64,000 nucleotides of DNA from contig JADZDM010000001.1 of NCBI GenBank assembly GCA_020851035.1, positions 62,001 to 126,000 of the forward strand. Reading direction: 5' to 3'. Each line of letters opens with the position of its first letter. The stretch's first letter is position 1. Origin of the DNA: Gemmatimonadaceae bacterium (GTDB lineage Bacteria; Gemmatimonadota; Gemmatimonadetes; Gemmatimonadales; Gemmatimonadaceae). The notes beneath the pieces are model-generated. The model had not been told where the DNA came from. It saw only the letters and a list, made by a program, of their open reading frames with translations, and made no database searches. Shown one piece after another: positions 22,607-36,780 of the stretch. Position numbers and translations under genes: made by a program.

Positions 22607-22978
22607 ATGAGTGGACCTTTCGACATCCGCACCGTCCCGAAGCCCTGGGGCCACGAGACGATCTGGGCGCTGACCGATCGTTATTGCGGGAAGATCCTGC
22701 ACATCACGGCCGGCGAGGCGCTGAGCGTGCAGTACCACAACGTCAAGGATGAGACCGTCCACCTGCTCAGCGGCCACCTGCTGTACCGGGTCCAGATCGA
22801 CGGCCAGCTCACCGACGTGCACCTGAAGCAGGGCGAGAGCTACCGCATCACGCCGGGCACCATCCACCAGATGGAGGCGGTGACCGACTGCGACGTGCTC
22901 GAGGTCTCGACCCCGGATCTCGACGACGTGGTCCGGCTCACGGACCGGTACGGCCGCGAAGGGACCAGCGCGGCGTAA
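22607..22978 (+). CDS. cupin-domain protein (mannose-6-phosphate isomerase type II-like)
   Basis: 123 residues. VPKPWGHETIWALTDRYCGK and ILHITAGEALSVQYHNVKDE are the opening motifs of the type II phosphomannose isomerase cupin; TPGTIHQMEAVTDCDVLEVS supplies the second cupin motif. The metal-binding pattern appears as Q-Y-H...E and H-Q. It lies upstream of a sugar-phosphate nucleotidyltransferase, consistent with activated-sugar synthesis. Its final codons and stop fall within the first unit of a 68-bp tandem repeat. Confidence 0.85.
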   Translation: MSGPFDIRTVPKPWGHETIWALTDRYCGKILHITAGEALSVQYHNVKDETVHLLSGHLLYRVQIDGQLTDVHLKQGESYRITPGTIHQMEAVTDCDVLEVSTPDLDDVVRLTDRYGREGTSAA

Positions 22979-23284: not shown

Positions 23285-24271
23285 ATGAAGGTCATAATTC
23301 CGCTGGCCGGGAAGGGGACGCGGCTGCGTCCACACACGCACCGTGTGCCGAAGCCGATGCTCAAGGTCGCGGGACGCCCCGTCATGAGCTACGTGATGGA
23401 TGACGTGATGAAGCTCGGTGGCGTGGAGCAGGTGGTCTACATCACCGGGCACCTCAAGGAGGCGGTCGAGGCCTACGCCCGCCGCAGCTACCCGGTGCCG
23501 AGCGTGTTCGTGGAGCAGGCGGTGCAGGACGGCACCGCCGGCGCCGTCAACCTCGCGCTGCCGTACGTCGACGCGCCGGTGCTGATCATCTTCGTGGACA
23601 CGATCTTCGACACCGACCTGTCGATCATCAACACCACCGACGCCGACGGCATCATCTGGGTGAAGGAAGTCGAGGACTACCAGCGCTTCGGCGTGGTGGT
23701 GACCGATGCGGACGGCCACATGACGCGCATCGTCGAGAAGCCGAGCACGCCGATCTCGAAGCGCGCCAACATCGGCCTGTACTACATCCGCAACTGGCAG
23801 CTGCTGGCCGAGGGCATCGCACACACGCTGCAGCAGCCGGCGAACAAGGGCGAGTTCTACCTCACCGACGCGTTCCAGTACATGATCGAGCACGGCGCGA
23901 AGATCAGGGTCGTGGACGTCGAGGGCTGGTATGACGCGGGCAAGCTCGACACGCTGCTGGAGACGAACCAGGCGATGCTCGAGACGCGGCACCTCGCGCG
24001 CGTGCCCGAGGGCTTCGCCGGTGCGACCATCATCCCGCCGGTCTACATCGAGGATGGCGTCACCGCCGACAGCGCCACCATCGGGCCCAACGTCTCCATC
24101 GGCAAGGGCACGACCGTCACCGGCAGCACCATCCGGAACTCGGTGATCGGCGACGCCTGCATCATCACCAACAGCGCCCTGCACGACTCGATGCTCGGCG
24201 ACACGGTGACGGTGCACGGATTCACCGGCGCGCTGTCACTCGGCGACAACTCCGAGCTCAGCGCGGACTAG
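23285..24271 (+). CDS. sugar-phosphate nucleotidyltransferase with left-handed beta-helix domain
   Basis: 328 residues. The N-terminal domain has the nucleotide-binding GKGTRLRPHTHRVPKPMLKV and the metal-ligand region IIFVDTIFDTDLS; YQRFGVVVTDADGHMTRIVE and NIGLYYIRN are typical of glucose-1-phosphate thymidylyl- and mannose-1-phosphate guanylyltransferases. The C-terminal ~85 residues (IIPPVYIEDGVTADSATIGP; VSIGKGTTVTGSTIRNSVIG) are hexapeptide repeats. It makes an NDP-sugar for cell-surface polysaccharide; the exact sugar is not determined. The upstream cupin gene fits the same pathway. Confidence 0.88.
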   Translation: MKVIIPLAGKGTRLRPHTHRVPKPMLKVAGRPVMSYVMDDVMKLGGVEQVVYITGHLKEAVEAYARRSYPVPSVFVEQAVQDGTAGAVNLALPYVDAPVLIIFVDTIFDTDLSIINTTDADGIIWVKEVEDYQRFGVVVTDADGHMTRIVEKPSTPISKRANIGLYYIRNWQLLAEGIAHTLQQPANKGEFYLTDAFQYMIEHGAKIRVVDVEGWYDAGKLDTLLETNQAMLETRHLARVPEGFAGATIIPPVYIEDGVTADSATIGPNVSIGKGTTVTGSTIRNSVIGDACIITNSALHDSMLGDTVTVHGFTGALSLGDNSELSAD

Positions 24272-24443: not shown

Positions 24444-25655
24444 TCAGCGCAGTCCAGCAGCCCCAGCGACGATCAACCACGCCCGCTGCAGCCCCCGGAC
24501 ACCGCCCTCGTCGTCGTACCACTCGGCCGGCGTGTGCGTGCCGCCGCCGCGGCCGCCGGCGCCGATGGCGATCGCGGGAATGCCCATCGCGATCGGGATG
24601 CTGGCGTCGGTGCTGCCGATCGAGAGGCGTGGCGTGACCCCGATCGCCGTCGTCGCCTGCCGCGCGATGCGCACCAGCGCCGACTCCTCACTCAGCGCCC
24701 CCGATGGCCGGCTGCCGAGGTGCTCGACGGTGGTGGTGAGCGGGGCGGTGTCGGTGAGGCGGCGGTTGTTCTCGCTGCGCTCCACCCGAGACACCGCCTG
24801 CCGCAGCGTGCGCTCGACGTCGGCCAGCACCTCGGCGCTGGTGCTGCGCAGGTCCAGGTCGAACCACGCCGCCAGCGGCACGCTGTTGATCCCCTCGCCG
24901 CCGCCGATGCGCGCCACCGTGAGCGTGGTGCGCGGGTCGCGCGGCAGGAGGATGGCCTGCAGGGCGCTCACCATCGCGGCGGCGGCGTGCACGGGATTCG
25001 CGACCCCGTAGTCGGCCCAGCTGTGCCCGCCCGGCCCCTGCACGGTCACGCGCAGCCGCGTGCTGCCGAGTGCGGCGTGCACGATGCGGTCGTCGCCGGC
25101 GCCATCGATCGCGATCACGGCGTGCGGCGCCGGTGAGGCCTCGCGCATCAGGGCGCGCATCCCGCGCAGGTCACCCAGGCCCTCTTCCCCCACCGTGCAG
25201 GCCAGCACCACCTCGTGCGGCGGCGAGAGCGCTGCGGCCTCCATCGCGGTGCCGATGGCCAGCAGCGCGGCGAGGCCGCGGCCGTTGTCTCCGATGCCAG
25301 GCCCCGAATAGCGCGTGCCCTGCACCTGCACCGCGGGGGCCGGCTCGTCGAAAACCGTGTCCAGGTGCGAGCAGCACCACACGGCAGCGCGCGAGCCGGC
25401 CGCCCCCGGGCGCCGCGCGATGACGTTGCCGGTGGCATCAACCCGCACGTCGCGCCAGCCGATCGCCGCGAAACGCTCCGCCATCCACGCCGCGCGCGCG
25501 CCCTCCGAACCGGTCGGCGCCGGCACGCGGGTCACGTCGCACTGCCAGGCCAGCACCTGCGCATTGATCGCCTCGAGGTGTGAACAGGCGGCCTGGAGCA
25601 CCGGCGCGACGCTGCCACGCAGCGAGGTGGGGCGGGGGGCGAAACGGGACGGCAT
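24444..25655 (-). CDS. M20-family metallopeptidase
   Basis: 403 residues from MPSRFAPRPTSLRGSVAPVL. M20/dapE-type metal sites: CSHLDTVF (first His and catalytic Asp), GPGIGDNGRGLAALL (bridging Asp), VGEEGLGDLRG (catalytic Glu-Glu) and a C-terminal GAGGRGGGTHTPAEW His. The dimerisation/lid segment holds GPGGHSWADYGVANPVHA. Family members are tripeptidases, carboxypeptidases or desuccinylases; the sequence resembles PepT-like and YgeY-like enzymes but substrate cannot be fixed. No signal peptide. Divergent from the LeuA-like gene. Confidence 0.88.
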   Translation of the reverse strand: MPSRFAPRPTSLRGSVAPVLQAACSHLEAINAQVLAWQCDVTRVPAPTGSEGARAAWMAERFAAIGWRDVRVDATGNVIARRPGAAGSRAAVWCCSHLDTVFDEPAPAVQVQGTRYSGPGIGDNGRGLAALLAIGTAMEAAALSPPHEVVLACTVGEEGLGDLRGMRALMREASPAPHAVIAIDGAGDDRIVHAALGSTRLRVTVQGPGGHSWADYGVANPVHAAAAMVSALQAILLPRDPRTTLTVARIGGGEGINSVPLAAWFDLDLRSTSAEVLADVERTLRQAVSRVERSENNRRLTDTAPLTTTVEHLGSRPSGALSEESALVRIARQATTAIGVTPRLSIGSTDASIPIAMGIPAIAIGAGGRGGGTHTPAEWYDDEGGVRGLQRAWLIVAGAAGLR

Positions 25656-25739
25656 GGCGCAAGGAAGCGGGTCCGTGGGCAACTCGGCAAGCACGTGATG
25701 GCAAGCACGACAGGAGGTCGCGTTGTATGTTTGCGTTCT

Positions 25740-26993
25740 ATGACTGTCCCGGGCGACTCGCCGTCCTCCCTCTACGACTGGAACACTCCCTCGCTGCGAC
25801 GGAGTGTGATCGACGTGGCCGACTCCACTCTCAGCGACGGGCCGCAAAGCCCGTCGGTGGTGGATCCGGGCCAGCGGGAGAAGCGCCGCCTCCTGTCGCT
25901 GATGGCGGACCTCGGGCTGCGCACCGCGTCGCTCGGCACGCCCGGCTCGGGCCCGCGGCAGTATGCCGACACGCTGGACCTCGCGCGTGAGCTGATGCGG
26001 GCGCAGTGGCCCATCGATGCCTCGTGTGGCGCACGGGCCACCGTGAAGGACGTGGCCACGGGACTCGACGTGCGGGAGCGCAGCGGGCTGGATCTCGAGA
26101 TCGCCATCGGGCTGCCGGTCTCGCCGATCCGGCTCGAGGCGGAGGGGATCAACGTCGAGCGGCTGCACGAGGTGGCCGAGACGTCGATCGGGTTCGCCGT
26201 CTGTGCCGGCGCACGAGCGGTGGCGGTGCTGGAGGATGCTTCGCGCACCCCGCCCGAGCTGCTGGCGGTGATCATCCGGCACGCCCTGTCGCTCGGCGTG
26301 AGCGCCATCCGCATCTGCGACAGTGTGGGGCACGCGACCCCCGAGGGCACCCGCACCCTGGTGCGATTCGCGATGGACCAGGTGCGGTCGCGCGGGGGAC
26401 GGCAGGTGCGCGTGGAGTGGCACGGCCAGGATGACCGCGGCCTGGCGCTCGCGAACGCGCTCGCGGCCGTGGACGCCGGCGTGCATCGCGTGCTGGCGAG
26501 TGCGCTCGGGCTGGGCGAGCGGTGCGGGACGGTGTCGATGGAGCAGCTGCTGGTGAACCTGCGCCTGGCGGGCCGCTGGCCGCACACGCTCGGCTCACTG
26601 GCCGAGTACTGCGACTCGGCGGCGGTGTCGTTCGGCATGGCGATTCCCGCGTCGTCGCCGGTGGTGGGGCGTGATGCCTTCCGGACCGGCGCCGGCGCTC
26701 GCGCCACGGCGCTGGTGAAGGCGCTCCGGGCCGGTGACCGGGCGCTGGCCGACAACGTCGTCTCCGGCGTGCCGGCGAGCCTGATCGGTGCCGAGAACCG
26801 GATCGACGTGAGCCCGGTGTCGGGGCTGTCGAACGTGCGCTGGTGGCTGTCGCAGCACGGCTACGACGCCGGCGACCTGGTGCTGATGCGCGAGCTGCTG
26901 CTGGCGGTGAAGCAGACGCAGCGTGCCGCCACCGACGAGGAGTTGTGCGAGCTGGCCGATGGCCTGCTGGCGGCCCGCGCTGCGCGGACCTGA
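25740..26993 (+). CDS. LeuA/HMG-CoA-lyase-like protein with altered active site
   Basis: 417 residues. Overall fold and order match the DRE-TIM metallolyase family (2-isopropylmalate, homocitrate and citramalate synthases): an opening DSTLSDGPQSP at 28-38, AIRICDSVGHATPEGTRTLV, and LALANALAAVDAGVHRVLAS with LGLGERCGT. However, the catalytic Arg of the usual DTTLRDGEQ is Ser32, and the metal-binding HxHND is His228-Gly-Gln230-Asp-Asp. The LeuA C-terminal regulatory domain is not obvious. It may be a regulatory or repurposed paralogue. The start is uncertain: AGGAGG at 25712 is closer to an in-frame TTG at 25731 than to ATG 25740. Confidence 0.75.
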   Translation: MTVPGDSPSSLYDWNTPSLRRSVIDVADSTLSDGPQSPSVVDPGQREKRRLLSLMADLGLRTASLGTPGSGPRQYADTLDLARELMRAQWPIDASCGARATVKDVATGLDVRERSGLDLEIAIGLPVSPIRLEAEGINVERLHEVAETSIGFAVCAGARAVAVLEDASRTPPELLAVIIRHALSLGVSAIRICDSVGHATPEGTRTLVRFAMDQVRSRGGRQVRVEWHGQDDRGLALANALAAVDAGVHRVLASALGLGERCGTVSMEQLLVNLRLAGRWPHTLGSLAEYCDSAAVSFGMAIPASSPVVGRDAFRTGAGARATALVKALRAGDRALADNVVSGVPASLIGAENRIDVSPVSGLSNVRWWLSQHGYDAGDLVLMRELLLAVKQTQRAATDEELCELADGLLAARAART

Positions 26994-27022: not shown

Positions 27023-27062
27023 CACGAAGGGCATCCTGACGACGGATGCCCTTCGTGGTTTT
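27023..27062. terminator. rho-independent terminator between convergent genes
   Basis: Perfect 14-bp stem (CACGAAGGGCATCC / GGATGCCCTTCGTG) with a 7-nt loop, followed on the plus strand by GTTTT. It lies between the LeuA-like gene and the convergent small partner of the SusCD operon, and can serve the plus strand; the minus-strand side has no T-run. Confidence 0.85.
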
Positions 27063-35766: not shown

Positions 35767-36780
35767 ATGTCCACCACAGTCACGCTCATCCCCGGCGACG
35801 GCATCGGCCCCGACATCACCGAGGCCACCATCCGGGTCCTGGCCGCCGCCGGTGCCGACCTGGTCTGGGACCGTCAGATGGCCGGCGCCTCGGCCGCGGC
35901 GCGCTACAACGACCCCATTCCCGAGGCCACGCTCGACTCGATCAAGAAGAACCACGTCGCGCTGAAGGGCCCGCTCGAGACGCCGGTGGGCGAGGGGTAC
36001 CGCAGCGTGAACGTCGCGATGCGGAAGACGTTCGACCTGTATGCGAACGTCCGGCCGGCGCACGTGATCCTGCACGGCGGGCGCTTCGAGAAGGTGGACA
36101 TCGTCATCATCCGCGAGAACCTCGAGGGGCTGTACTACGGGGCCGAGCACTACATCCGCATCGGTGACGACCCCAAGGCGGCGGCCGAGAGCGTCGCGCT
36201 GATCACGCGCTACGGCTCCGAGCGCGCGATCCGCTACGCGTTCGACTACGCGGTGAAGCACAAGCGGAAGAAGGTGACGCTCGTCCACAAGGCGAACATC
36301 CTGAAGTACACGCAGGGGCTGTTCCTGGACGTGGGGCGCGAGATCGCGAAGGAGTACGCCGGCCGCGTGCAGTTCGAGGACCGCATCATCGACGCCATGG
36401 CGATGCAACTGGTGCTGCGGCCCGAGAACTTCGACGTGATCGTGACCACGAACCTCTTCGGCGACATCCTCTCCGACCTCGTCTCGGGGCTGGTCGGTGG
36501 GCTGGGCCTGGCCCCGGGCGCGAACATCGGGCCCACGGCCGCGATCTTCGAGGCGGTGCACGGCACGGCACCGGACATCGCCGGCAAGGGCGTCGCGAAT
36601 CCCGGCGCGCTCATCCTCGCGTCGTGCCTGATGCTGGACCACCTGGGGGACACGGTGCGTGCGGAGCGCATCCGCACCGCCCTGCACGCGGCGATCGACG
36701 CACGGGAATCCCTCACGCGCGACCTTGGCGGCAGCGGCACGACGCAGCAGTTTGCGGATGCGATCATCGCCCGGCTCTGA
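35767..36780 (+). CDS. isocitrate/isopropylmalate-type dehydrogenase (NAD-IDH-like)
   Basis: 337 residues. TLIPGDGIGPDITEATIRVL starts the family. Substrate-binding and catalytic blocks: ETPVGEGYRSVNVAMRKTFD, IIRENLEGLYYGAEHY with its Tyr, VTLVHKANILKYTQGLF with the catalytic Lys, NLFGDILSDLVSGLVGGLGL with metal-ligand Asp residues, and HGTAPDIAGKGVANPGALIL. These fit NAD-dependent isocitrate dehydrogenase (about 330-340 residues) better than LeuB, which has a different signature at the Glu-Asn-Leu-Glu-Gly loop; tartrate or homoisocitrate forms remain possible. Probably a TCA-cycle enzyme. Confidence 0.85.
   Translation: MSTTVTLIPGDGIGPDITEATIRVLAAAGADLVWDRQMAGASAAARYNDPIPEATLDSIKKNHVALKGPLETPVGEGYRSVNVAMRKTFDLYANVRPAHVILHGGRFEKVDIVIIRENLEGLYYGAEHYIRIGDDPKAAAESVALITRYGSERAIRYAFDYAVKHKRKKVTLVHKANILKYTQGLFLDVGREIAKEYAGRVQFEDRIIDAMAMQLVLRPENFDVIVTTNLFGDILSDLVSGLVGGLGLAPGANIGPTAAIFEAVHGTAPDIAGKGVANPGALILASCLMLDHLGDTVRAERIRTALHAAIDARESLTRDLGGSGTTQQFADAIIARL

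Follow-up and report, generated by a model that had tools for sequence, protein, structure and literature searches.

In methylthioalkylmalate synthase, the metal ligands are Asp90, His288, and His290; the R89A, R89K, and R89Q variants are all inactive, only H388N among five substitutions of His388 retains weak activity, and Y399S is inactive (PMC11532901). The authors of that study term the Arg invariant across DRE-TIM metallolyases and describe it as essential in several subgroups (PMC11532901). Pseudoenzymes in general (for a review, see PMC10211241) have lost a catalytic motif and kept both fold and selection, and the protein described here does likewise. The Arg and the HxH metal pair are regarded as universal in the DRE-TIM superfamily, and the Gemmatimonadaceae genus studied here departs from both. 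A literature search found no paper combining "pseudoenzyme" and "isopropylmalate synthase." Should the protein indeed have taken on a new function, no selected pseudoenzyme (or enzyme lacking the Arg) would, to our knowledge, have been documented before it in the isopropylmalate/homocitrate synthase group.

We analyzed a window of 64,000 nucleotides from a Gemmatimonadaceae bacterium (GCA_020851035.1, contig JADZDM010000001.1, positions 62,001 to 126,000), with the gene order atpB-E-F-H, M1 peptidase, cupin, nucleotidyltransferase, divergent M20 hydrolase, the target gene, SusD, SusC, and CstA. The features of the locus, in window coordinates, are as follows:

22631-22978, forward strand: cupin (mannose-6-phosphate isomerase C-terminal type), a syntenic marker
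23285-24271, forward strand: sugar-1-phosphate nucleotidyltransferase, a syntenic marker
24444-25610, reverse strand: divergent M20-family metallohydrolase, paired divergently with intact orthologues of the target in the same family too
25740-26993, forward strand: target gene, a degenerate HMGL-like (LeuA-like) protein of 417 aa; start codon inferred; orthologues of 72-75% identity in two further species of the genus
35767-36780, forward strand: isocitrate/isopropylmalate dehydrogenase family protein, best match isocitrate dehydrogenase

Possible alternative starts of the target exist at in-frame TTG, GTG, and ATG codons upstream, from position 25695. Scans for promoters, terminators, and Rfam families around the gene found nothing. 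An inverted repeat, GGGCATCC...GGATGCCC, lies downstream of the stop codon at 27029-27051 and is a possible terminator that the terminator scan did not call.

The sole Pfam domain of the target is PF00682 (HMGL-like), the profile of the DRE-TIM fold superfamily, matched at 112.6 bits against a cut-off of 29. The LeuA, NifV, and homocitrate synthase models also match, all far under their cut-offs, with at most 116 bits for the bacterial LeuA NCBIfam equivalogs (cut-offs 517-748), 138.9 bits for the NifV equivalog (462.9), and 99.2 bits for the homocitrate synthase/LysS equivalog (413.6). The LeuA_dimer regulatory domain (PF08502) is absent. The initial annotation had called the protein LeuA-like, which holds for the HMGL-like domain and no further: judged from its sequence, the protein is not LeuA but a member of a separate, unnamed HMGL-like family, because its scores lie far under every LeuA, NifV, and homocitrate cut-off. 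Such proteins should therefore not be annotated as LeuA or homocitrate synthase.

The AlphaFold2 model of the target (pLDDT 93.2, pTM 0.90) grouped in Foldseek with homocitrate synthase 6ktq and methylthioalkylmalate synthase 6e1j, with 6ktq as the best PDB match of the predicted model (TM 0.82/0.86), which places the predicted barrel in the Claisen-condensing subgroup. The model of an intact family member (L008) has the same structural neighbors. The barrel plus lid fold is common to the target and 2-isopropylmalate/methylthioalkylmalate synthases (3rmj, 1sr9, 6e1j; TM-score 0.79-0.82 to 6e1j). Homocitrate synthase (6ktq, 2ztj, NifV) is the best match in both sequence and fold, but the target lacks the Arg of the TLRxG motif and the second metal His and reaches 139 bits against the NifV cut-off of 463. 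In Thermus homocitrate synthase, an Arg133/Ser135 pair binds 2-oxoglutarate, and the intact parental proteins differ in having Met and Val at these sites in our alignment.

The altered motifs lie at the following positions:

25821-25850, forward strand: former DETLRDGLQ motif, now DSTLSDGPQ(S); the invariant Arg is Ser32 and metal Asp33 is kept
26418-26438, forward strand: former WHGHRDR motif (residues 227-233), now WHGQDDR; the second metal His is Gln230 and the first, His228, is kept
26502-26531, forward strand: GERxGN motif (residues 255-264), now ALGLGERCGT; Asn264 is Thr
26694-26762, forward strand: lid segment (residues 319-341) with the His of GVHAAA (R321) and a Tyr (V341), from alignment and mutant data (PMC11532901)

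The window protein thus reads D28-STL-S32-D33-GPQ, H228-G-Q230-D-D, and ALGLGERCGT at 255-264. The DSTLSDGPQ and HGQDD motifs, with the Ser32 and Gln230 numbering, had been read in the same way in the initial annotation. That reading also took LGLGERCGT as conserved, which is not fully accurate: all members of the parental family end this motif with Asn, where the genus has Thr. Likewise, the loss at 2 catalytic positions is real and understates the change, since Tyr341, His321 (in the window species), and several barrel-mouth positions are gone as well. Across the 3 species of the genus, the first motif is DSTLSDGPQ, DSTLCDGPL, or DSTFCDAPQ, the second is HGQDD in one and HGQQD in two, and the third is GERCGT in one and GERSGT in two. 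All 3 species have thereby lost Arg32 (Ser/Cys/Cys), His230 (Gln), and Asn264 (Thr), and also Tyr341 (Val/Cys/Gly), a residue invariant throughout the parental family. His321 is replaced by Arg in the window species only, the 2 sister species keeping His. The loss of Asn264 is weak evidence alone, because homocitrate synthases carry Ile there in alignments. The barrel-mouth changes E29S, L35P, N95S, T100A, G126P, and W137I are identical in the 3 species, and of 24 family-conserved positions changed in all of them, 17 carry the same new residue. Asp33 and His228 (3/3 genus members) are retained together with Glu165 and Arg131, and Arg99, Asp166, and Asp194 likewise remain in the altered pocket.

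By alignment, Asp90, His288, His290, Arg89, and His388 of methylthioalkylmalate synthase correspond to Asp33, His228, Gln230, Ser32, and Arg321 of the target. Tyr399 corresponds less surely to Val341, an equivalence that relies on alignment across a variable loop where the HMMER and MAFFT placements differ. Compared with isopropylmalate and methylthioalkylmalate synthases, the target is without the Arg89, His290, and Tyr399 equivalents and the LeuA_dimer domain, and the window protein also lacks that of His388. We strongly infer that the target would be unable to condense acetyl-CoA with a 2-oxo acid, because the equivalent Arg (A, K, Q) and Tyr-to-Ser mutants of methylthioalkylmalate synthase are dead, and published mutants show that condensation requires this Arg together with a partner Tyr and His.

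A search of 60 related genomes returned 2 orthologues from the same genus, 72-74% identical to the target, and a more numerous group with 40-48% identity. The 3 genus species, one of them represented by Gemmatimonadaceae bacterium LF-bin-339 (JACMPK010000002.1), have separate genomes and pairwise protein identities of 72-75%, and 3/3 genomes compared carry both the gene and the motif loss. Outside the genus, DETLRDG (or DESLRDG), HGHxD, GERxGN, and GVHAAA/GVHASA are kept wherever the site is covered, in more than 130 sequence rows that include some genomes met twice and that span Gemmatimonadota, Acidobacteriota, Methylomirabilota, Myxococcota, Planctomycetota, and other phyla. This parental family (DETLRDGLQ...HGHRDRG...GVHAAA; Gemmatimonadota, Acidobacteriota, Methylomirabilota, and others) has 40-48% identity to the target, equal length, and a similar predicted fold, and it shares the locus within the same bacterial family; it keeps the Arg, both metal His, the Asn, the lid His, and the lid Tyr, most of which the genus protein lacks. 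It is present in 187 of 395 sampled Gemmatimonadota genomes, about half of them. No further degenerate members were found among the lowest scorers of the 395 Gemmatimonadota genomes, those fetched being intact or mere fragments, or in other phyla. Within Gemmatimonadaceae, only 16 of the 179 genomes, belonging to 5 of the 35 genera, have the gene at E <= 1e-40, and the parental activity seems dispensable there.

The locus ties the altered gene to the intact ones. An intact target gene follows the same order of cupin, nucleotidyltransferase, and divergent M20 hydrolase in one genome of the same bacterial family (L061), and the divergent pair of M20 hydrolase and intact target recurs in 3 others (L010, L101, L131). 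The window order matches these intact loci, which makes the altered gene equivalent in position to the intact one. A phylogeny of 46 proteins groups the genus in 1 clade, whose stem measures 1.62 changes per site and whose tips measure 0.15-0.24; the tree does not resolve whether the genus joins the intact clade of the same bacterial family, and the AU test does not reject this placement (p = 0.24), so that orthology with that clade is decided by synteny. Target identity to the sister genera is 43-47%, and that of the sister genera among themselves 74-92%. The neighboring CstA shows no such jump, with 71-75% to the sister genera against 73-81% among them. The M20 hydrolase (24444-25610) also diverged on the genus branch (49-53% to the sister genera, at least 62% among those), and its metal residues look intact by eye. 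The isocitrate/isopropylmalate dehydrogenase family gene lies about 9 kb from the target and near some intact orthologues as well. The neighbors of the orthologues, including DUF885, MFS, aldehyde dehydrogenase, nucleotidyltransferase, and other genes, suggested no single pathway.

Pairwise NG86 dN/dS of the target among the 3 species was 0.17-0.22 at dS 0.85-0.93, and neighboring genes gave 0.19-0.21 (nucleotidyltransferase), 0.17-0.21 (M1 peptidase), and 0.29-0.31 (M20). The reading frames are clean, with no stop and almost no indel over 417 codons. Ordinary dN/dS together with clean frames indicates that the protein was maintained after the motif loss, and two marks of a pseudoenzyme under selection, a motif loss shared by 3/3 genus members and purifying selection after it, were observed.

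We compared the distribution of constraint in the genus trio with that in 34 trios of intact members of similar pairwise identity, which overlap and draw on 20 distinct rows. Invariance at the barrel mouth (the pocket) was 0.75 in the genus versus 0.84-0.97 in the intact trios, at other barrel positions 0.61 versus 0.55-0.65, and over residues 280-409 it was 0.67 versus 0.52-0.63. Among 20-residue windows, 31-50 and 51-70 were lower in the genus than in all intact trios, and 2 segments reached 0.80, exceeding every intact trio:

25950-26009, forward strand: residues 71-90 (helix 72-88), candidate new interface; 16/20 invariant in the genus, 0.35-0.65 in intact trios
26850-26909, forward strand: residues 371-390 (helix from 380), candidate new interface; 16/20 invariant in the genus, 0.21-0.55 in intact trios

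Binomial tests against the intact means gave about 0.004 for residues 71-90 and about 0.0006 for residues 371-390, of which only the latter survives correction for 20 windows, and this shift is drawn from few sequences because the genus has only 3 members. Pocket positions in the genus nevertheless remain slightly better conserved than other barrel positions (0.75 vs 0.61, p = 0.03), which leaves room for ligand binding or new chemistry.

The explanation that we favor and consider probable is that the protein is a selectively kept pseudoenzyme, found within the present data in a single Gemmatimonadaceae genus, that evolved in place and acts by binding or regulation. Its ancestor would have been an intact alkylmalate-synthase-like enzyme of the Claisen-condensing DRE-TIM metallolyase subgroup at the same locus. 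The 3 species share the loss of the Arg that binds substrate, of one of the metal His, and of the Tyr in the lid; the predicted fold, the position, and the reading frame are kept, dN/dS is ordinary, and constraint has moved from the barrel mouth to 2 segments elsewhere. On these sequence comparisons, the most likely mode would be binding or regulation through altered surfaces, either by contact with a partner through the 2 newly constrained helices or as a sensor whose altered pocket, which retains Asp33, His228, Glu165, Arg131, and Arg99, still binds a small ligand. In plain terms, a genus of soil bacteria carries a member of a carbon-chain-building enzyme family whose catalytic residues are gone and which probably has a new, noncatalytic job. 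Only tentatively do we propose the broader statement that a DRE-TIM barrel lacking the invariant Arg of its superfamily and bearing a D-H-Q site took on a new function in one genus, whether as a sensor or regulator acting via 2 helices or as an enzyme of new chemistry. Sister genera that carry an intact orthologue at this locus, 3 changed species, and clear selection on the altered protein amount to a natural experiment and a concrete case for studying how a barrel of central metabolism becomes something else.

The main rival, which we regard as unlikely though a serious contender, is that the altered barrel (Asp33/His228/Gln230, no Arg) catalyzes another reaction, metal-dependent or not, for instance that of an aldolase, a lyase, or a hydrolase acting on a related acid. 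The retention of Asp33, His228, Glu165, Asp166, Asp194, and Arg131, the many new pocket residues identical across the 3 species, as new chemistry would predict, and the higher conservation of the pocket than of other barrel positions are consistent with it. However, pocket constraint is lower than in every intact trio of similar divergence, key positions (32 Ser/Cys, 341 Val/Cys/Gly, and 321, which varies by species) lack the fixity expected of a catalytic set, and several DRE-TIM subgroups cannot function without the Arg (PMC11532901). The initial annotation had named a pseudoenzyme, a regulator, or a different chemistry, which was the right frame, and the outcome that it named as refuting did not arise, since all 3 genus species share the change; the wider family retains Arg and His.

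Family relatives among the isopropylmalate and homocitrate synthases are dimers, and the target might be the inactive subunit of a mixed oligomer that tunes a catalytic protein such as LeuA, like paralogous dead subunits elsewhere. LeuA is the sole other PF00682 protein of the genome and constraint rose in 2 segments outside the barrel mouth, but the target has no LeuA_dimer domain, is about 30% identical to LeuA, and is not linked to the leu cluster, which makes this reading rather improbable. A slowly decaying remnant of a lost pathway, which this genus would simply not have shed yet, would fit the scarcity of the gene in Gemmatimonadaceae, where most genera are without it and the parental activity would be dispensable; it is largely refuted and very improbable, since dN/dS equals that of neighboring genes at dS of about 0.9, the frame is intact, and short tips follow the long stem, and a decaying pseudogene is rejected on dN/dS and frame. 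That relatives with Arg and His would imply a sequence error, as had been suggested, does not follow: relatives beyond the genus do have both residues, but the pattern is that of a derived loss in 1 genus. A sequencing or assembly artefact is scarcely credible and is rejected, because 3 separate genomes share the loss and agree in protein with many synonymous differences.

The only other PF00682 protein in the window genome is an ordinary LeuA that has the LeuA_dimer domain, the second gene that the initial annotation had thought worth seeking, encoded elsewhere in a cluster of ilvD, acetolactate synthase large and small subunits, ilvC, leuA, leuC, and leuB. A role of the target as the leucine-supply LeuA is rejected on this ground, and leucine supply is not at stake. 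The homocitrate synthase of the LysW lysine pathway is likewise rejected, the LysW profile having no match in the 3 genus genomes (G000-G002) and exceeding its cut-off in 1/60 relatives. A Re-citrate synthase replacing a missing citrate synthase is rejected, as ordinary citrate synthase occurs in 57/60 relatives and in the window genome.

The parental HMGL-like family (e.g., L008 and L045-L123; Gemmatimonadota and Acidobacteriota) is widespread and fits no NCBIfam equivalog. An intact homologue of it was found on a linear plasmid of Streptomyces sp. KN37 (L185:11884-13155; NZ_CP139046.1) within an NRPS/PKS cluster, next to an aconitase-family gene and an isopropylmalate-dehydrogenase-like gene and together with 2 crotonyl-CoA carboxylase/reductases. 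These genes probably form a module for 2-oxo acid elongation within a natural-product cluster and give a hint to the parental chemistry.
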